From Candidatus Thorarchaeota archaeon (GTDB lineage Archaea > Asgardarchaeota > Thorarchaeia > Thorarchaeales > Thorarchaeaceae), in contig PRDJ01000057.1 in NCBI GenBank assembly GCA_003345555.1, positions 1-64,000 on the forward strand: a stretch of DNA of 64,000 bases, in the 5' to 3' direction. A program made the translations under genes and the position numbers. Every line of letters starts with the position of its first letter. Position 1 is the stretch's first letter. The notes below the pieces were generated by a model that was given only the letters and a program-made list of their open reading frames with translations, did no database searches and had not been told where the DNA came from. Below are positions 31,479 to 54,573 of this stretch, piece after piece.

Positions 31479-32483
31479 TCACGGTACGGCTGTGATGAGG
31501 TTCAAGTTGTTACCTATCGCCTGTACAATTTCCGTGTTACCGTCTCCATCGAAATCACCAAGTGCCAAGAGAGACTCCACGGGCTTTGGGGCGGTTTTCA
31601 GCGACGCATCTTGAATTAGCTCCTCGCCGTTGTAGGAGAGGAGCAGGATTGTTGAGTCTCTCAGGCTAAGTACAATATGCTGCAGGTGCGAGTCCTTCTG
31701 GAGGTGTCCCACTTGAAGGGAGCTCACTTCAGATGGCAATTTCAGGCCCGTCTTCATTTCTAGCTTGCTCTGCCCCATGGCAAGCAAACCAAGAGCGCGG
31801 CCGTCCGATACAATGACCACATCGTCATTCTTGTCCCCCGTTATGTTGCCTGTGGCTAGAAGATGCCCCTCGCCCCCCACAGTCAGTCTCGAAAGCTCCT
31901 GCAGCCTATCATCTGCATAATGGTACACATAAAGCGACCCAGAATCATCGCCGAATACAAGTCCGCTATATGGCATTCCTCTATTTCTCAAGGGCTGCAA
32001 AGAAAATGTTGGCCTATCTGTCGTCTTGTGGGCCAATTTGTCAAGGGATGCTTCGAACCATCCATAGCATCTCAATGCTCCGTCATTAGTAGCGACTATC
32101 ACTTCTGCTGTCTCATTGCCAACAACATTGGTGACACAGAGAGCAGTGGGGAGGCTGCCAAGTTGAACAGTGTCCCTTACAACCAATTTTCTTTCCACCG
32201 ACGATATCACTCGAAGGGCATTGTCGAGGCCGCCAACTATGAGGTCGGTGGTGCCAACGTCTGTGACGTTTCCTGTAGAAAGAGCAACTACGGGCGGTAG
32301 TCCTGTTGCCACAGATACTTGAACCAGTCTCGGCTTTCTGACGGTCTCGATACGCATGATTCTTACGTCGCCATCAATTGTCGAGACAACAAGGTTGCTA
32401 CGTTCTCGTCCGCTAAAGGCCGCCGCACTCAGGGACGTTATTGCTTCCTTTAATGAAAACTCAGCAATGACTCCCAGATTCAT
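31479..32483 (-). CDS. Cytosolic FG-GAP-like beta-propeller protein
   Basis: A 334-residue protein built of repeated beta-strand units with Gly-Asp turns, for example STIDGDVRI, ATNDGALRCYGWF, GDDSGSLYVYHYADD and finally ALGDFDGDGNTEIVQA, a textbook FG-GAP calcium-loop sequence. Roughly six to seven blades are implied. There is no signal peptide or membrane helix, so unlike most FG-GAP proteins it should be cytosolic. It may be a scaffold; cytosolic propellers of this kind occur in eukaryotic trafficking complexes, but no direct orthology can be claimed. Confidence 0.7.
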   Translation of the reverse strand: MNLGVIAEFSLKEAITSLSAAAFSGRERSNLVVSTIDGDVRIMRIETVRKPRLVQVSVATGLPPVVALSTGNVTDVGTTDLIVGGLDNALRVISSVERKLVVRDTVQLGSLPTALCVTNVVGNETAEVIVATNDGALRCYGWFEASLDKLAHKTTDRPTFSLQPLRNRGMPYSGLVFGDDSGSLYVYHYADDRLQELSRLTVGGEGHLLATGNITGDKNDDVVIVSDGRALGLLAMGQSKLEMKTGLKLPSEVSSLQVGHLQKDSHLQHIVLSLRDSTILLLSYNGEELIQDASLKTAPKPVESLLALGDFDGDGNTEIVQAIGNNLNLITAVP

Positions 32484-33253: not shown

Positions 33254-34801
33254 GTGAGGTCGGATTCCTTGCCAAGGAAACGTATGGAGACCGAGTCATC
33301 GCCGCCCGGAGACATGGACCCAGCTATTGCAGAACTCATCCGTTTGACAGGAATGCGGGAATCAGCTATTGTCACAGCCCGCAAGAGACAGGATGAGGCT
33401 TGGAAGGGAATTGGCGCAATACTCTCGGAACACAAACGCATCATTGCCATTGGTGGTCGGCATACTCGTCAAAAAGCAATTCAGGACCCTGTTCACGGGG
33501 CGATTATCCTAGATCCATGGGAACTGGATCTGATTTCCAGCTGGGAGATGCTGAGGCTCCGATACATTAAGCAGCTCGGGCCTGCCTGTATAGTCTATCC
33601 AGGAGCAACGCATACTCGATTCGAACACTGCCTTGGCACGAACTTTCTCACTCAGAAGTGCATTAGGGTCGTCAACTACTGTGAAGACCTTCGTGGTGCC
33701 TGCTTCAAGCCACTCTCCGAGCTACTTGACGCCGACCAGCAGAAAGTCTTCAGGGCTGCTGCCTTGCTACACGATGTTGGTCATCCTCCGACGTCACACA
33801 CAATCGAATTCCCGTTAAGATGCTGGACCGGTCTCACCCATGTTGACCTCGGTGAGTTGCTCATAATGCGTAGCGGTATCACGGAGATACTTGAGCAGAG
33901 TGGTATCGAACCGAGAGCGGTCGTGGATGTTCTCAAGCGTAGGAAGAGCGACCCAGTGCTGGATCTTCTGTCCGATTTTCTGGACTCGCCTCTCGATTTG
34001 GACAAGACTGACTATCTGATTCGTGATGCTCATTTCAGCGGTGTCCAGCTCGGGATCTTCCCTGCAGAGCGAATCATGCTGACAAACCGCGTGGTTCGCG
34101 ACTCTGAAGGCAAGTATGTGCGGGCATTCATGTTGAAGGCATTACACTCGCTTGAGGCACTGATTCTAAGCCGTAACTGGATGTTCTCAGACCTTTATCT
34201 GCATCATGCCGTCCGGGTCGCAGAAGCGCTTACGTCCAAAGCCACCTACTTCAGGATGAAGGAAGAGAAACTTTCCAAGAATGAGTGCATTGGCTTCTTC
34301 ACCAGGATGACCGATTCCGACCTATACCAGTGGCTTGGTGAGTCTAAGATTGATTTTGTTCGTGAGTACGTGGCTAGGATTAGGTACCGGAGACTGTTCA
34401 AAGTGGCCATATCAAGACCGATTGCTGCCCTTGAACCCGACGCAAGGAAGCGAGTCCTCGCCATGCTCTCCGACATTGATCGCCTCCTTGAAGCTGAGAC
34501 TGCGCTTGACGAGAACCCCGGGAGAGTGATAATTGATGTGCTGAATCCTGAACTGGGGTTCAGATTCCTATCGACTATTCCTCTCCTCATCGGGAAAGAA
34601 GACTCGGGCTTGGAGATAGCGAGTCTAAGAGACACAGATGAAGGGCGGCCTCTTGTACACGCATTGAACCAGCAGAGGTTCACCATTCCATCAGTCCGAG
34701 TTTACTGCGACCCAGAAATCGCGATTCACGTTAGGCGGCAGTTCCATAGAGAATTTCCGACAGTTCGACCTGAGCACAACGCAGAAGATGACTTCCAATG
34801 A
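33254..34801 (+). CDS. HD-domain phosphohydrolase, SAMHD1/dGTPase-like
   Basis: An HD-superfamily enzyme of 515 residues. The core matches dNTP triphosphohydrolases: DPVHGAIILDPWE (79-91), PGATHTRFEHCLGT with H125, LLHDVGHPPTSH with H173-D174 and the distal His, and LDLDKTDYLIRD supplying the last metal Asp (D250). These are the ligands used by SAMHD1. The likely reaction is dNTP to deoxynucleoside plus triphosphate. GTG 33254 suits a leaderless message; ATG 33284 is the alternative. It converges on the RNase III-like gene with a 24-nt gap. Confidence 0.87.
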   Translation: MRSDSLPRKRMETESSPPGDMDPAIAELIRLTGMRESAIVTARKRQDEAWKGIGAILSEHKRIIAIGGRHTRQKAIQDPVHGAIILDPWELDLISSWEMLRLRYIKQLGPACIVYPGATHTRFEHCLGTNFLTQKCIRVVNYCEDLRGACFKPLSELLDADQQKVFRAAALLHDVGHPPTSHTIEFPLRCWTGLTHVDLGELLIMRSGITEILEQSGIEPRAVVDVLKRRKSDPVLDLLSDFLDSPLDLDKTDYLIRDAHFSGVQLGIFPAERIMLTNRVVRDSEGKYVRAFMLKALHSLEALILSRNWMFSDLYLHHAVRVAEALTSKATYFRMKEEKLSKNECIGFFTRMTDSDLYQWLGESKIDFVREYVARIRYRRLFKVAISRPIAALEPDARKRVLAMLSDIDRLLEAETALDENPGRVIIDVLNPELGFRFLSTIPLLIGKEDSGLEIASLRDTDEGRPLVHALNQQRFTIPSVRVYCDPEIAIHVRRQFHREFPTVRPEHNAEDDFQ

Positions 34802-34825: not shown

Positions 34826-35536
34826 TCAGAAATCATGCGTCGGGTCATTGTGTCTTTCTAGATGAGAGATAAGTCGTCTCACCTCATCCAAGCCCTGCTC
34901 AATGTACACGATTCCGTAGACAGCCTCCAGAAGTGTACCTTTTGTATGACTAATCTCAGACTTTGTAGGACTGGGCGGATCGAAATGAATGCGATAGTCA
35001 TAGAGCCCCCAGAGGTCACACAGCCATGCCAGATGTTCGTTGCTGACAAGTTCCGCCCGCGACTGGGTCAGCAGCCCTGCATCAGCAACCTTAGGACGCC
35101 ACAGATGATGAAGGACTGCCATTGAGATTGCTGCATCTCCAACTAGGGCCAAGACTTTAGCCATGTCACTCAGCGACTTCAGATTCACGAAAAGATCTGA
35201 ATCAGGAAATGACCTCTCATTCGCAAAATGAGTTTCAAGCTCAAGGAATAGGTTTCTCGTGCTGGGCTGGAACATTGCTATCGAGAGAAGCTCTGTCTCT
35301 TCAAAGTGCAATCCTACTATTGACGAAAGTCTTGGCACCAAGACGTTGCGAATCTGAGCCAGTGCAGAGATGATGGTCTCAAGCTGCTGTCTCCAGCGCT
35401 CAAGCCTGGCGAGTAGGCGTGTGTTCTGTCGTGGGATGTCTGCCGCACTGGAATTGACCCCGGCAAGCAACAATCCCAGCTTGTCTTCAATGCCTACGTG
35501 TTCCCAGTGCAGTTCCGTCCCTGTTCGGGTTCTCAT
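34826..35536 (-). CDS. RNase III-fold protein with degraded active site
   Basis: A 236-residue protein. After a helical N-terminus (about 1-65, coiled-coil-like) residues 70-225 follow an RNase III domain: VLALVGDAAIS (125-138), GLLTQSRAELVSNEHLA (154-170) and KGTLLEAVYGIVYIEQG (199-215). Of the four catalytic acidic residues, the Asp of GDA (D134) and the Glu of LLEA (E204) remain, but the first Glu is A130 and the second Asp is T201. No double-stranded-RNA-binding domain follows. RNase III is uncommon in archaea. It starts within the stop codon of the CARF-like regulator gene (ATGA), so the two are coupled. Confidence 0.65.
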   Translation of the reverse strand: MRTRTGTELHWEHVGIEDKLGLLLAGVNSSAADIPRQNTRLLARLERWRQQLETIISALAQIRNVLVPRLSSIVGLHFEETELLSIAMFQPSTRNLFLELETHFANERSFPDSDLFVNLKSLSDMAKVLALVGDAAISMAVLHHLWRPKVADAGLLTQSRAELVSNEHLAWLCDLWGLYDYRIHFDPPSPTKSEISHTKGTLLEAVYGIVYIEQGLDEVRRLISHLERHNDPTHDF

Positions 35537-36330
35537 ATCATGCCTTCTCCAGGGACTATGTGAGTTACCGCAGTCTTCTCTCCCTCATGACGTTGTATGT
35601 AAATGGCCGTGAGTGAGTACTGCATTGCGATAAGGCATAGTGCCAGCAAGATCACTGAAGGTCCTGTAGAGAGGTTCACAATGGGTTCGGACTCCGGCAG
35701 GGCCTCAAGAACAACCTTCTCAATATGTGCATAGGTCGCCATCAGGTCTCCTCTTATGCGTCCTTCCTCATAGCCTGCCACCTTGGCTGGCAGTTCATGC
35801 CAAGTGGTCTGCCATTTCTTTGTTACTCCTTCGGGCACATATCTGTCAATGTTCTTGCTGACCCCTCGGGCGAAGCGCTCTTGTTCAACAACCAGCCGGA
35901 GGAACTTGAAGTTGAATGTCATTTCCTTGGCATACCACATCATGAGCGGACGTGCATCTTCTGGTTGACCAATGGATGTGATCAGAGTGCCTGGCCTCGA
36001 AATGCCTAGAGCTCTTCTGGCAGACTGGATTGCTCTCGGGTGTAGCTCGAATATTCTTTGCTGCGAATCCTTTCTGCTCACGATTATGCCTAGGTCTTCC
36101 AGATGCTTTGTGTTGAAGTAGAGCTTGGGGTCGGTTACCTTGAAGTCGTCGGGTTTCACGTTCTTCATGCCTGCCTGAACTGCCTCAGCCATCATGTTCT
36201 TTCTGATGCTTTCTCTAAGTTCAGTCCCCGTCTTTGAGCCGCCTTCGAGCTGGTCCAGTATTATGCGACGAACCGCAACGCTCTGCACTTCCGCCTTGAC
36301 GAGCGTGTCCATGTGGTTTGAGAACATCAT
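35533..36330 (-). CDS. Winged-helix regulator with C-terminal CARF-like sensor domain
   Basis: A 265-residue protein. Residues 17-110 form an ArsR-like winged helix (VRRIILDQLEGGSKTGTELR, then YFNTKHLEDLGIIVSRKDSQ). From about 113 the pattern is Rossmann-like: GTLITSIGQPEDARPLMMWY, then IVNLSTGPSVILLALCLIAM near residues 217-236, in the place of the NxTGGT loop of CARF domains, followed by AIYIQR. CARF domains bind cyclic oligoadenylates or similar ligands. The HTH-then-CARF order is the reverse of Csa3. ATG 36330 is used; ATG 36327 is equivalent. Confidence 0.6.
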   Translation of the reverse strand: MMFSNHMDTLVKAEVQSVAVRRIILDQLEGGSKTGTELRESIRKNMMAEAVQAGMKNVKPDDFKVTDPKLYFNTKHLEDLGIIVSRKDSQQRIFELHPRAIQSARRALGISRPGTLITSIGQPEDARPLMMWYAKEMTFNFKFLRLVVEQERFARGVSKNIDRYVPEGVTKKWQTTWHELPAKVAGYEEGRIRGDLMATYAHIEKVVLEALPESEPIVNLSTGPSVILLALCLIAMQYSLTAIYIQRHEGEKTAVTHIVPGEGMI

Positions 36331-36726
36331 ATTCGGTCAAACTCTACTAACAATACTTCATATATATAATGTGTATATTCGCATAAGTGTTCCTGCATTT
36401 TCCCGGGCAAGAAGTGGGCGCGCACGATTATGAAATGACTCGGTGCAGTGGCGAATTTCGGCATGCTCAATGCCTCCGCCAAGAACCATCTAAGCCAGTT
36501 CTGACAAGTCGCATCTCTGCTGCCATTGCCAGAGGAAGAGAGGCATATACAGTATACATAGGTCATGTCGTTCTTTGTCGGATATGCCCGTTTTTTCGGA
36601 CTTATCTAAGATTCCCTTAAATGTCCCGGTCCGACTCTTCCTCTCAATTAGGGTTCTAGTAGGATGCTTCATGCATTCTGAATCTTAACACAAGTCAAAA
36701 ACAGAAAACAAGAGGACCGACACAAA
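36331..36726. other. Gene-free divergent intergenic region before actin
   Basis: This 396-bp interval separates the CARF-like regulator from actin. I find no convincing gene. It contains the AT-rich regulator promoter (36362-36378), the repeat TATACAGTATAC (36546-36557), a T-run (36591-36596) and two possible actin TATA elements: CTTAAATG near 36614 and ATCTTAAC near 36682. A GAGGA stretch near 36712 may be the actin ribosome-binding site. The 36380-36540 part is featureless to me. Confidence 0.5.
36362..36378 (-). promoter_or_regulatory. AT-rich promoter with imperfect palindrome
   Basis: ATATATA, spacer ATG, then TGTATAT: arms match at six of seven positions. On the minus strand it supplies a TATA box about 32 nt upstream of the CARF-like regulator start, so regulator binding here would give autoregulation. 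Confidence 0.4.
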
Positions 36727-37866
36727 TTGGCCGAAGACGAATTCCTGGGCGCAAAGCCAGTTGTCATCGACAATGGCACTGGACTTAGCAAAAACGGGTA
36801 TGCAGGAGAAGACCAACCACGAAGTGTCTGGCCGACGCTGATTGGCTATCCAAGATACGAGTCAATCATGACCGACGTAGATCACTACACTCGTGACTAC
36901 TATATCGGCGAGGAGGCCATCAACCTACGAGGTGTCTTGCGTCTTGTGTATCCTATTACTCACGGAGTAATTGATGACTGGGACGCTATCGAGAAGATCT
37001 GGTCGTACACATTCTATAACGACCTGAAAGTCGACCCGAGCGAGAATCCTGTGCTTCTTACAGAAGCTCCATTCAATCCGCGAGAGAACAGAGAGCGAAT
37101 GGCATCAGTGATGTTCGAGAACTTTGGAGTCCCAGCAGTGTATGTAGCGACGCAAGCAGTGCTGTCACTGTACGCGTCCGGAAGAACAACGGGTCTAGTC
37201 ATTGACTCGGGTGACGGTGTTACTCACATAGTCCCAATTTACGAAGGATTCGCGATTACACACGCTATCCGAAGAATCGACTTGGCTGGCCGTGACGTAA
37301 CGGAATACCTGCGTAGGCTGCTCAGACAGAGGGGTTACTCCTTCGTGAGCGGTGCTGAGAAAGAGATCGTTAGGGACATCAAGGAGAAGCTCTGCTATGT
37401 CGCCCTCGACCCTGAGAGGGAGAGAACAGTGGCTGACAAAGCAGGTGTCGACAAGCCCTACATGCTGCCAGACGGCGAGGTAATCACCGTTGGCGCTGAG
37501 AGGTTCCAAGCACCAGAGCTGTACTTCAACCCGAGCGCGATCGGCCTTGACACTTCGCCACTCGACGACCACATTGTCGAGTCAATCAAGGCGTGTGATG
37601 TGGACCTAAGACGTGATCTGTACGCGAACATCGTACTATCCGGTGGTTCAACTATGTTCCCAGGACTGAAGGAGAGACTCCACAAGGAAATCACCGAACT
37701 GGTCCCGGAGAACATCGAGGTCAGAATCATTGCTCCTCCGGAGAGACAATACTCGGTCTGGATTGGTGGAAGCATCCTTGCTTCACTCAAGACCTTCCAG
37801 AAGATGTGGGTGTCGAAGAAGGAGTTCGAGGAATCAGGCCCCGAAGTCATCCACCGCTGTATCTAA
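36727..37866 (+). CDS. Eukaryote-like actin (Asgard actin, lokiactin family)
   Basis: A full-length actin of 379 residues (eukaryotic actin is 375). Both phosphate loops are present: [16 protein letters not shown] (residues 12-27) and [18 protein letters not shown] (157-174). So are the hinge segment [18 protein letters not shown] (139-156), [13 protein letters not shown] (301-313), the [13 protein letters not shown] region and a C-terminus VIHRCI like actin's. It differs most in the D-loop (residues 40-60). It should form ATP-dependent filaments. TTG 36727 is the start. A gelsolin gene in the same window (57154) is a probable partner. Confidence 0.97.
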
Positions 37867-38121: not shown

Positions 38122-39570
38122 GTGACGAAGTCAATCTCTAGAAAGCACCGTCTTGCCTCGACATTTTCTCCCATGTGGCAGGCCCTTGCGCACACTCTCG
38201 CGGCCAAGTGTGAGACGTGCGGGCAACAAAGGATGGTGTCGATATTCCGGTTCTACTCGGAAGGTTATCATCCTAGCTGCAAGGGCTGTTTGCTTGCGTG
38301 TGCGACCATGATGCCGTTCATAGACCTGCTATTTCGACGACTCGGAATCGCCAAGAGCACGACAAAGTCACTACTAAGGGATCCAGTGATTCGTAGGTCT
38401 ATGGTAAGCGTTGTCAAGGGAATTGCGAGCTTTGGTATAAGGTATCCACAGCCCACCGGTGCACCCATCTCCATTGTATGGAACGTCACAAACAGATGCA
38501 ACCTGCGTTGTATTCATTGCCATCAGGACTCATCCCCCACCTGCTTGGACCCGGAATTGACTACCTCGGAGGCATATAGAGTCATAGATAACATGAGCGA
38601 AGCAGGACTCGTGACACTGACGTTCTCAGGAGGCGAACCCTTGGTTAGAAAAGACTTGTACGATCTGATCAAGAGGGCAGATGACAGCGGCCTACTATGC
38701 ACAATCGCATCCAATGGGACTCTTCTCACTGCAGAGACTGCTCGGGAACTCGCGAGAGCCGGAGTAAAGCGCGTCGAAATGGGCCTAGATGGGGCAAGAC
38801 CTGAAACGCATGACTTTCTGAGAAACCGACCTGGTAGCTTTGAAGCAACCGTTGCGGCAGTCCGTGCCTGCGCTGCTCAGGGCTTCGATGAGATTGCCAC
38901 CACCATGACTTTGCACTCGAAGAACGTCGATGAACTGGAAGATACGATGGAGTTGGCCGAGAAGCTGGGCGCAACGAGATTCTATCTGAACCGACTCATA
39001 CCTGCAGGCCGGGGAGTGGATGTGTCCTACCTTGATGTGACAGCCAAGCAGAAAGCAGACGCGCTCAAGACGTTGTACTCCAAGTTCTACAAGAGCGCAA
39101 CCTGCGGGTCCGGGATGCAGTGCTACGCTCGAGGGATGACATACTACGCACGTCTAGGCTATGAACACTCTCGCGGCAGAATCTTCACAGTGAGTGAATC
39201 GTTGTCAGGTCACGAAAGGATGTTCGAAGACAAGTTTGGGTCTGCAGTATCCGGCATTGTCAGGAGACTCGCAGAGGGCTTCGGAGGATGTTCTGCAGGG
39301 TTAACTTATGCTGGTCTCACTGCTTCGGGTGATCTGTTACCATGCGTTCCTGCGGCAGAACCATTAGGCAATCTGCTCACGCAGAGTCTCGAAGATATAT
39401 GGGTTCACAATCGAGTATTGGATTACATCAGAAACCGCAAGGCATTGAGAGGCAACTGTGGGGAGTGTGCGTACAACCATCTGTGCGGCGGCTGCAGATA
39501 CACGGCCTATGTAGCTACAGGTGATTGGTTGGGAACTGATGTCTCTTGCCCCTTTGGTCCGGCATCATAG
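38122..39570 (+). CDS. Radical SAM protein with SPASM-type C-terminus
   Basis: A radical S-adenosylmethionine enzyme of 482 residues. The cluster motif is CNLRCIHC (C126, C130, C133), followed by FSGGEPL and IASNGTLL. The C-terminus carries extra cluster ligands, CGECAYNHLCGGCR, as in SPASM/twitch enzymes that modify peptides or act in haem and cofactor chemistry. Unusually, the N-terminal 60 residues hold five Cys (C30, C33, C53, C56, C60) before the radical SAM barrel, perhaps a zinc site. It starts at GTG 38122. No small precursor-peptide gene is adjacent. Confidence 0.9.
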   Translation: MTKSISRKHRLASTFSPMWQALAHTLAAKCETCGQQRMVSIFRFYSEGYHPSCKGCLLACATMMPFIDLLFRRLGIAKSTTKSLLRDPVIRRSMVSVVKGIASFGIRYPQPTGAPISIVWNVTNRCNLRCIHCHQDSSPTCLDPELTTSEAYRVIDNMSEAGLVTLTFSGGEPLVRKDLYDLIKRADDSGLLCTIASNGTLLTAETARELARAGVKRVEMGLDGARPETHDFLRNRPGSFEATVAAVRACAAQGFDEIATTMTLHSKNVDELEDTMELAEKLGATRFYLNRLIPAGRGVDVSYLDVTAKQKADALKTLYSKFYKSATCGSGMQCYARGMTYYARLGYEHSRGRIFTVSESLSGHERMFEDKFGSAVSGIVRRLAEGFGGCSAGLTYAGLTASGDLLPCVPAAEPLGNLLTQSLEDIWVHNRVLDYIRNRKALRGNCGECAYNHLCGGCRYTAYVATGDWLGTDVSCPFGPAS

Positions 39571-46918: not shown

Positions 46919-48004
46919 TTGCAGGCCGATGCGTATGAGAGACTAGCGGCTAGACTCAACAAGATGCCGCTTGGATTCCCTTCCGTTGAGGACGGAACCC
47001 ATCTGAGAATACTCCGATGGATCTTCACCCCTGAAGAAGCTGAGATTGCTAGTCAGATGAAGCTCAGAGGCGAAACCGCAGAGGAACTAGCGAACCGACT
47101 TGGATTGCGGCTCAGAAACGTGCAGACGCGACTTGAAGCAATGGCAAGGAAAGGTCAGATCAGAGCATGGGACTCGAGCACGGGCAGACGATATGCTCTG
47201 ATCGTCTTTGTAGGAGGAATCTGGGAAAACCAGCTCCGGAGAATGGACAAGGAGTTTGCCCAACTTGCCGAGGGCTACTTCAGCAAGAGCGTGGGCAGGG
47301 GGCTGTTCGATACCCCTCCGGCACTATTCAAGGTGATTCCTATCAATCGTGCAATTCGTCCGGAGCTGGAGGTATATCCATATGAGATCGCACAATCAAT
47401 GGTGCAGGATTCAAAATCCTGGGGACTGAGAGAGTGCATGTGCAAGAAACAGAAGCAGGCAGTAGGAGAACCCTGCAAGTTTCCGTCCTCAGTGTGTATT
47501 CTCATCAGCCCGAACAAAGAGCATGCATACGACAATGACTCCTTCACAAAGGCGATTACGAAAGAAGAGGCGCTTGCGGTTCTTCATCAAGCCGAAGAAG
47601 CGGGACTAGTCCATTGCTCAATGAACGTACAGACCGGGTATTCTTACATATGCAACTGCTGTACCTGTTGCTGTCTGATGCTGAGAAGTCTTGTCAAGTG
47701 GAAGCAGCCACACGCCTTTATCAGGTCAAACTACATGACACAGGTTGACGCAGAATCATGCACTGGTTGCGGCCGATGCATTGAGAGATGCCAATTCGGG
47801 GCATTGAGCATTCCTGAGAGCACATGTGAGGTTGACTCGAATCTTTGTGTCGGCTGCGGTGTCTGCTCCATGGCCTGCAAAGAAGGTGCACTCAGCCTAA
47901 GAGCAAGAAGCCCGGACGATACAACTACTCCTCCCGCATCTAGAGAGGAATGGATGACACTAAAGGCGGAATCGAGGGGTGTGGACCCGTCGGACTTGTT
48001 CTAG
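46919..48004 (+). CDS. Winged-helix/ferredoxin regulator-like protein, paralog A
   Basis: A protein of 361 residues in four parts: an N-terminal winged helix (30-95, RILRWIFTPEEAEIASQMKL...STGRRY), a linker, a Cys-rich centre (CMCKKQ 173-178, C186, C193, HCS 232-234, and CNCCTCCC 245-252), and two [4Fe-4S] ferredoxin motifs (CTGCGRCIERC 281-291, CVGCGVCSMAC 310-320). It would suit a redox- or metal-sensing regulator, or an electron-transfer adaptor. TTG 46919 is the start; a CAAATATAGG promoter lies near 46867. A paralog of equal length is encoded at 53488. Confidence 0.8.
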   Translation: MQADAYERLAARLNKMPLGFPSVEDGTHLRILRWIFTPEEAEIASQMKLRGETAEELANRLGLRLRNVQTRLEAMARKGQIRAWDSSTGRRYALIVFVGGIWENQLRRMDKEFAQLAEGYFSKSVGRGLFDTPPALFKVIPINRAIRPELEVYPYEIAQSMVQDSKSWGLRECMCKKQKQAVGEPCKFPSSVCILISPNKEHAYDNDSFTKAITKEEALAVLHQAEEAGLVHCSMNVQTGYSYICNCCTCCCLMLRSLVKWKQPHAFIRSNYMTQVDAESCTGCGRCIERCQFGALSIPESTCEVDSNLCVGCGVCSMACKEGALSLRARSPDDTTTPPASREEWMTLKAESRGVDPSDLF

Positions 48005-53487: not shown

Positions 53488-54573
53488 ATGCCCACAAATC
53501 CATATGAGCGGCTCGCCGCAATACTGGACAAGATACCTAATGGCTTTGTACATACCAAATCCGGCGCACACCTGAGATTGCTCAAGTGGATATTCACTCC
53601 GGAGGAGGCTGACCTCGCGAGTCGGATGAAGCTTAAGGGTGAGACTGCAAGCGAGATTGCTGTTCGCCTCAAGCTGAACGAGAAGGATTTGAAGAATCGC
53701 CTTGAGAAGATGGCCGAGAAGGGCCTCATCCGCGCATGGACATCCAGCACTGGTAGACGTTATGCCCTGATGCCTTTCGCAGTGGGAGTGTATGAAGAAC
53801 AGCTAGGTCGAATGGATAAGACCTTCGCTCGTTTGATTGAGGATTACTACATGGATGCAAGAGGGTCGGGTCTATGGGAAGCAGAACCTCCAATCTTCAG
53901 AGTCATTCCTGTCAACAAGGCGGTGCATTCTGAGCTTGAAATCTTTCCGTACGAAGTCGCCGAGGAGATGATTGAGACTTCGAAGGCATGGGGCGTCCGA
54001 CAGTGTATTTGCAAGAAGCAACAGGGATTGCTTGGCAAGCCATGCAAGTATCCATCCACAGTCTGCATTGTCTTGTCCCCCAAGAAGGAAAACGCGTTTG
54101 ACGAGGACCATCTCACGAAGGCAGTGACGAAGGATGAGGCGTTGCAGATTCTGCATAAGGCGGAAGAAGCGGGGCTGGTCCATTGCTCACAGAACATGCA
54201 GAAAGGGCATTTCTACATCTGCAATTGCTGCACATGCTGTTGCGGCATACTGCGGGCCGTCGCACAATGGGAGCTGCCATATGCGCTCGTCAAGTCAGAC
54301 TACGTCGCTACGGTGGATCCAGAGCTGTGCGCCGGATGTGCTACTTGCGAAGACCGATGCCAGTTCGACGCGCTGAAAGTTGTCGATGATGTCTGCCATG
54401 TGGACGCCACGAGATGCATCGGATGCGGTGTATGCTCAGTGACCTGTCCTCAAAGTGCTCTTACATTGACGATGAGGGACCCTGCGAAACGGAAGGTCCC
54501 GCCTGAAACACTCATGGACTGGATGGTCGAGAAGGCCAAATCCAGAGGAGTCAATCCATCCGATTTGCTCTGA
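53488..54573 (+). CDS. Winged-helix/ferredoxin regulator-like protein, paralog B
   Basis: Equal in length (361 residues) and layout to the protein at 46919: winged helix with the same LRLLKWIFTPEEADLASRMK start, STGRRYAL wing, Cys-rich centre (CICKKQ, CKYPSTVC, CNCCTCCCG) and two ferredoxin motifs (CAGCATCEDRC, CIGCGVCSVTCPQSA), ending SRGVNPSDLL. All cluster Cys are kept. ATG 53488 is the start, with a GACTTAATCGG promoter-like element near 53445. The pair arose by duplication and now flank the arrestin and TPP operon region. Confidence 0.82.
   Translation: MPTNPYERLAAILDKIPNGFVHTKSGAHLRLLKWIFTPEEADLASRMKLKGETASEIAVRLKLNEKDLKNRLEKMAEKGLIRAWTSSTGRRYALMPFAVGVYEEQLGRMDKTFARLIEDYYMDARGSGLWEAEPPIFRVIPVNKAVHSELEIFPYEVAEEMIETSKAWGVRQCICKKQQGLLGKPCKYPSTVCIVLSPKKENAFDEDHLTKAVTKDEALQILHKAEEAGLVHCSQNMQKGHFYICNCCTCCCGILRAVAQWELPYALVKSDYVATVDPELCAGCATCEDRCQFDALKVVDDVCHVDATRCIGCGVCSVTCPQSALTLTMRDPAKRKVPPETLMDWMVEKAKSRGVNPSDLL

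Follow-up and report, generated by a model that had tools for sequence, protein, structure and literature searches.

What is the role of a two-gene operon that joins a putative sensory regulator to a relative of RNase III in an Asgard archaeon? We addressed this question for a locus within a 64,000-nucleotide stretch of a Candidatus Thorarchaeota contig (PRDJ01000057.1, assembly GCA_003345555.1), referred to here as the window. On its minus strand, the gene for a 265-aa protein that we call CA (35533..36330) is followed by the gene for a 236-aa protein that we call RF (34826..35536). The two open reading frames overlap by 4 nt (ATGA), as described in an earlier note on this DNA that was made from the sequence alone. 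That note read the operon as a nucleotide-signal-responsive regulator tied to a double-stranded-RNA-binding pseudo-nuclease, and it omitted the actin gene that lies divergently on the other side of CA.

Conservation of the CA-RF operon

Among 47 Thorarchaeia genomes, CA was found in 43 and RF in 42, and the two genes were adjacent in 41, the rest breaking at contig ends. The proteins of the pair are ~40 to 60% identical across the Thorarchaeia, where the spacing from CA to RF ranges from -62 to +71 nt and is most commonly the 4-nt overlap seen in the window. Conservation of the pair is far beyond chance. Outside this family, CA orthologs were present in 25 further genomes, from families that include Hermod-, Jord-, Frey-, Baldr-, and Helarchaeota, and in none of these 25 was an RF homolog found beside CA. 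Full-length homologs of RF were likewise detected in five other Asgard families (17 genomes), with no CA adjoining, and outside the Thorarchaeia their gene context was not conserved beyond one genus. A pattern-based scan of 84,980 prokaryote genomes, which can miss distant relatives, returned Asgard loci only.

Other genes of the window also drew our attention. The gene for an HD-domain phosphohydrolase (33254-34801, plus strand; PF01966 and PF19276, dGTPase/SAMHD1-like) is conserved in convergent orientation next to RF at almost every thorarchaeial locus. A beta-propeller protein (31479-32483, minus strand), syntenic near actin in Thorarchaeia, has Pfam matches to the propellers of RSE1/DDB1/CPSF1 and BBS2/BBS7, and is possibly a eukaryotic-signature-like protein. 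Downstream of actin and on the same strand is a Radical SAM/SPASM protein (38122-39570, plus strand); the genes past actin vary in most other thorarchaeial loci. Farther along, two apparently paralogous proteins of 361 aa (46919-48004 and 53488-54573, both plus strand) have similar N-termini and 4Fe-4S ferredoxin domains.

Fold and domain order of CA

The AlphaFold model of CA is confident (pLDDT 89.6, with 32 sequences in the alignment) and places a winged helix ahead of a CARF domain. Residues 19-97 (36040..36276, minus strand) form a PadR/ArsR-like winged-helix domain that is predicted to bind DNA, and a Foldseek search of the PDB matched the N-terminal half to ArsR-type winged helices. Residues 113-265 (35536..35994, minus strand) form a Rossmann-like domain of CARF-type topology, which runs from E114-119 to E255-259 with strands 5 and 6 as the last two. 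The top structural matches of this domain (Cam1, Csm6, Card1, Can2, Sso2081, and Csa3; E 8e-5) are all CARF proteins. In sequence comparisons, single CA orthologs gave weak, sub-threshold, yet independent matches to five CARF families (HFX_2341_N, Card1, Csa3, Csm6, and TIGR02710) and weak matches to PadR. Structure prediction and structural search thus bear out the N-terminal winged helix and C-terminal CARF fold that the earlier note had proposed. The note had also named what would speak against it, namely a fold for residues 113-265 unrelated to CARF or a gene pair not conserved in related genomes; neither was found, since the domain is a CARF fold and the pair is conserved.

A winged helix joined to a CARF domain is not in itself new. 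Proteins of the Csa3a, Csa3b, MM_0565, and HFX_2341 family, roughly 220 to 265 aa in length, share this combination, and CARF-winged-helix regulators such as Csa3 are dimeric DNA-binding regulators where they have been studied (PMC8699464, PMC8844856, PMC7465815). In Csa3 and MM_0565, however, the CARF domain is N-terminal and the winged helix C-terminal, which is the reverse of the order in CA, and in most CARF regulators the winged helix does not come first (PMC4012209). Csa3 and MM_0565 are also tied to CRISPR, whereas CA is unconnected with CRISPR and adjoins actin. The N-terminal winged helix of CA is shared with PadR/ArsR-type repressors (LmrR, SqrR, and SrnR), but those families have no CARF domain, so that CA carries an added C-terminal ligand domain. 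On the genomic evidence, then, CA would be a CARF and winged-helix regulator of a known kind, new in its reversed architecture, its non-CRISPR setting, its tie to actin, and its lineage-specific RNase III-like partner.

CA lies head-to-head with actin

The divergent neighbor of CA (36727-37866, plus strand) encodes a eukaryote-like, lokiactin-type actin (Pfam Actin, E=5.8e-134); among solved structures, HC1 actin is its nearest relative and eukaryotic actins come next. It is separated from CA by an intergenic region of 396 bp (36331..36726) and is the proposed target of CA. Using a list of actin genes completed with positions read from individual loci, we found CA head-to-head with actin at less than 900 bp in 40 of the 43 CA-bearing Thorarchaeia genomes, the three exceptions being two contig ends and one gap of 1.5 kb. 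The same arrangement, with no RF downstream of CA, was found in 15 of the 25 CA-bearing genomes of other Asgard families. Head-to-head spacing ranged from 110 to 611 bp.

Since the link to actin exists without RF in several families, the pairing of CA with actin is probably the older arrangement, and RF probably entered the operon later, in the Thorarchaeia. We consider the actin link to be a stronger functional clue than the CA/RF pair. Finding CA beside actin without RF led us to abandon the idea that the pair is a self-contained system. The recurrence of the head-to-head arrangement across many Asgards suggests that CA is probably a switch controlling the adjoining actin gene. Some observations weigh against this view. 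Among the ten non-thorarchaeial genomes in which CA and actin are not paired, two have contig ends and one has actin 3.3 kb away, and overall, of the 23 non-thorarchaeial genomes that could be assessed, 8 have CA unlinked to actin. Furthermore, a divergent gene order can outlast any regulation. A limited search of the open-access literature found no transcription regulator of Asgard actin.

Candidate operators between CA and actin

Candidate binding sites were found in the shared intergenic region. Baldrarchaeota (TATAGATGATATCGTCTATA), Jord/Freyarchaeota (TATGGATGATATCGATGATA), and a family with 1.4-Mb genomes, f26 (TATAGACGATATCGCTTATA), share a related 20-bp dyad in the CA-actin gap, ~20 to 25 bp upstream of the actin TATA. 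Compared across lineages, the dyads match significantly between Baldr and Jord/Frey and between f26 and f3, and weakly in other pairs. At up to one mismatch, the dyad occurs in 9 of 17 whole genomes, in one place each and always in the CA-actin gap; the pattern was derived after the sites had been seen, so that its recovery there is by construction and only the absence of further copies is independent. This absence of any second near-identical copy in a genome speaks for the dyad as a putative dedicated site rather than part of a regulon.

Other lineages carry sites of their own. Hermodarchaeota have a perfect palindrome with 11-bp arms at the same position. In Thorarchaeia, AT-rich inverted repeats, which are hard to tell from AT tracts, lie ~45 to 55 bp upstream of GGCTTAAATA, the element corresponding in relatives to the putative TATA-like element of the actin promoter in the window (CTTAAATGT, 36616..36624, plus strand). 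The candidate operator of the window, ACATGACCTATGTA (36555..36568, minus strand), is the only exact match in the genome to its pattern ACATNACCTATGTA. A cross-lineage comparison of 18-mers revealed no operator shared between Thorarchaeia and the other lineages, and no comparable site was found upstream of actin in Asgards that have no CA. Judged by the strength of dyads in single sequences, CA-bearing genomes were not separated from controls, some of which scored equally high; Hermodarchaeota, Baldrarchaeota, and one thorarchaeial sequence stood out as exceptions. Upstream of unlinked actin genes in five genomes, dyad scores were mixed (p=0.005 in G076, p=0.02 in G081, and not significant in three), and nothing was found upstream of unlinked CA; these results count against CA as an actin regulator and we do not use them as support.

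These observations bear on an alternative in which CA regulates its own operon along with other genes, and actin is a conserved but unregulated neighbor. Archaeal regulators often autoregulate, and some lineages do encode CA away from actin. Yet the conserved dyad adjoins the TATA of actin and not CA, a position-weight dyad scan found no similar site upstream of unlinked CA genes, and at up to one mismatch no second site was found elsewhere in a genome. We therefore regard this alternative as rather unlikely, and prefer CA as a probable regulator of actin.

RF is an RNase III relative with an altered active site

RF matches the Pfam family Ribonuclease_3 (PF00636, E=3.3e-11) over residues 128-215 (34892..35155, minus strand), and Foldseek found its AlphaFold model to resemble structures of RNase III and Drosha. 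Two of the four catalytic positions retain their acids (D134 and E204), while the expected E and D are replaced by A130 and T201, much as the earlier note had read them. The alteration is not peculiar to the window: across 40 aligned homologs (RF and 39 others), the four positions are A in 38 and G in 2, D in 40, T in 39 and S in 1, and E in 40, so that loss of the two acids, seen in 40/40, is a fixed property of the family. H197 is nearly invariant among these homologs and K199 invariant. RF thus has the fold of a class I RNase III without its four-acid E-D-D-E signature, and the double loss makes it a probable pseudo-nuclease, judging from its sequence.

The supposition that RF binds double-stranded RNA fared less well. 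The N-terminus of RF bears a helical extension, no dsrm match was found in Pfam, and in the model nothing follows the RNase III domain; canonical Asgard RNase III does have a dsRNA-binding domain, as in two examples (L197 and L203) that also retain the E/D acids. Among known relatives, mL44 (MRPL44) is a non-catalytic RNase III homolog without part of the active site. Its active site is incomplete, as is that of RF, but RF is not ribosomal as far as is known. The helical extension, the missing dsRNA-binding domain, and the fixed A...D...T...E signature set RF apart from RNase III, Drosha, and mL44, and RF would represent an archaeal family related to RNase III in which the active site is broken. 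Although RNase III had been taken to be rare in archaea, the domain scored above the cut-off in 151 of 228 Asgard genomes. According to a 2021 review, archaea have no RNase III (PMC8708148), and our literature search returned nothing on point for RNase III in Asgards.

Could RF nevertheless be an active nuclease that cleaves actin or CA mRNA, using D134 and E204 with re-wired ligands such as H197 and K199? The two retained acids correspond to D45 and E117 of Escherichia coli RNase III, the more critical pair there: their loss abolishes activity in vivo, whereas the E41A and D114A single mutants are still weakly active in vitro (PMC8708148, Table 1); the strong conservation of H197 and K199 would also fit. 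Still, two of the four metal ligands are missing throughout the family and RF has no dsRNA-binding domain, and we find this possibility improbable. Our best reading is that RF is a putative Thorarchaeia-specific partner of CA.

The ligand loop and the distribution of Cas10

Nucleotide-binding CARF domains are marked by a K/R in a motif, [DN]x[ST]xxx[RK], that follows strand 4; the residue is typical and not universal, and families without it have been listed (PMC4012209). In CA, the sequence NLSTGPS (residues 219-225; 35656..35676, minus strand) directly follows the fourth strand (E215-219). Its placement at the CARF ligand loop, as suggested in the earlier note, agrees with the end of that strand at residue 219 in the model. 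The loop itself does not fit the motif, as S225 replaces the typical K/R. This basic residue is present in 20/20 CA proteins from non-thorarchaeial Asgards vs 0/21 from Thorarchaeia, where the position is S, P, A, or T. For the CA of the window, a response to nucleotide signals is thus not supported. The lineage that lost the K/R is the lineage that gained RF, which suggests that a protein partner may have taken over there from a small molecule as the input of CA. This correlation amounts to a single evolutionary event and proves nothing alone.

The distribution of Cas10 also bears on the ligand. Cas10 was detected in only 9 of the 47 thorarchaeial genomes, as against 43 with CA. No Cas10 match was found in the genome of the window and no array-like, CRISPR-like repeats in the window itself, which bears out the earlier note's remark on the absence of a CRISPR locus. 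No CA ortholog was found near Cas10. From the scarcity of Cas10 in Thorarchaeia and its absence from this genome, the cyclic oligoadenylate of type III CRISPR is not the general ligand of CA, and a CRISPR-derived ligand is unlikely; a literal reading of CA and RF in terms of cyclic oligoadenylate and CRISPR was rejected on this distribution. Separately, remote CARF homologs (L178, L180, L192, and L193, in genomes G117, G141, and G079) share contigs with Cas10. They are distinct from the actin-linked CA and are probably accessory proteins of type III CRISPR systems.

It is accordingly very improbable that CA is a Csa3-like, cyclic-oligoadenylate-responsive regulator of CRISPR type, with RF an RNA-acting defense effector and actin an incidental neighbor: CA has the CARF fold, CARF regulators that sense such ligands are known (e.g., Csa3; PMC8844856), and remoter homologs accompany Cas10, but the Cas10 record is as just described, the CA-actin linkage spans several families, and thorarchaeial CA has no basic ligand residue.

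A model for CA and RF

We lean toward a model in which CA is a dedicated regulator of the actin gene, acting through a dyad operator, and RF serves as its partner in Thorarchaeia. CA would act as a one-component regulator that binds the dyad operator in the CA-actin gap, with its winged helix contacting DNA and its CARF domain serving as a dimerizing sensor. By activation or by repression, it would set the transcription of actin and possibly its own. In most Asgard lineages, a CARF domain with the basic pocket residue may respond to a nucleotide-type ligand whose source is not type III CRISPR. The thorarchaeial pocket has lost this residue, and there CA would be co-produced with RF. RF probably does not work as a normal nuclease; it may be a protein partner of CA or a co-regulator at the level of RNA.

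A more far-reaching evolutionary scenario can be sketched, if only tentatively, and we hold it to be doubtful in full. A CARF sensor would have left immunity in an early Asgard ancestor to become a dedicated, signal-dependent switch of the eukaryote-like actin gene, and the Thorarchaeia would then have exchanged its small-molecule pocket for a catalytically dead RNase III partner.

CARF domains are known mainly from CRISPR signaling. If the model is true, CA would be a CARF domain at work outside CRISPR immunity. Control of the actin cytoskeleton in the archaeal relatives of eukaryotes would also become directly testable through a regulator whose DNA site and sensor domain can be identified.
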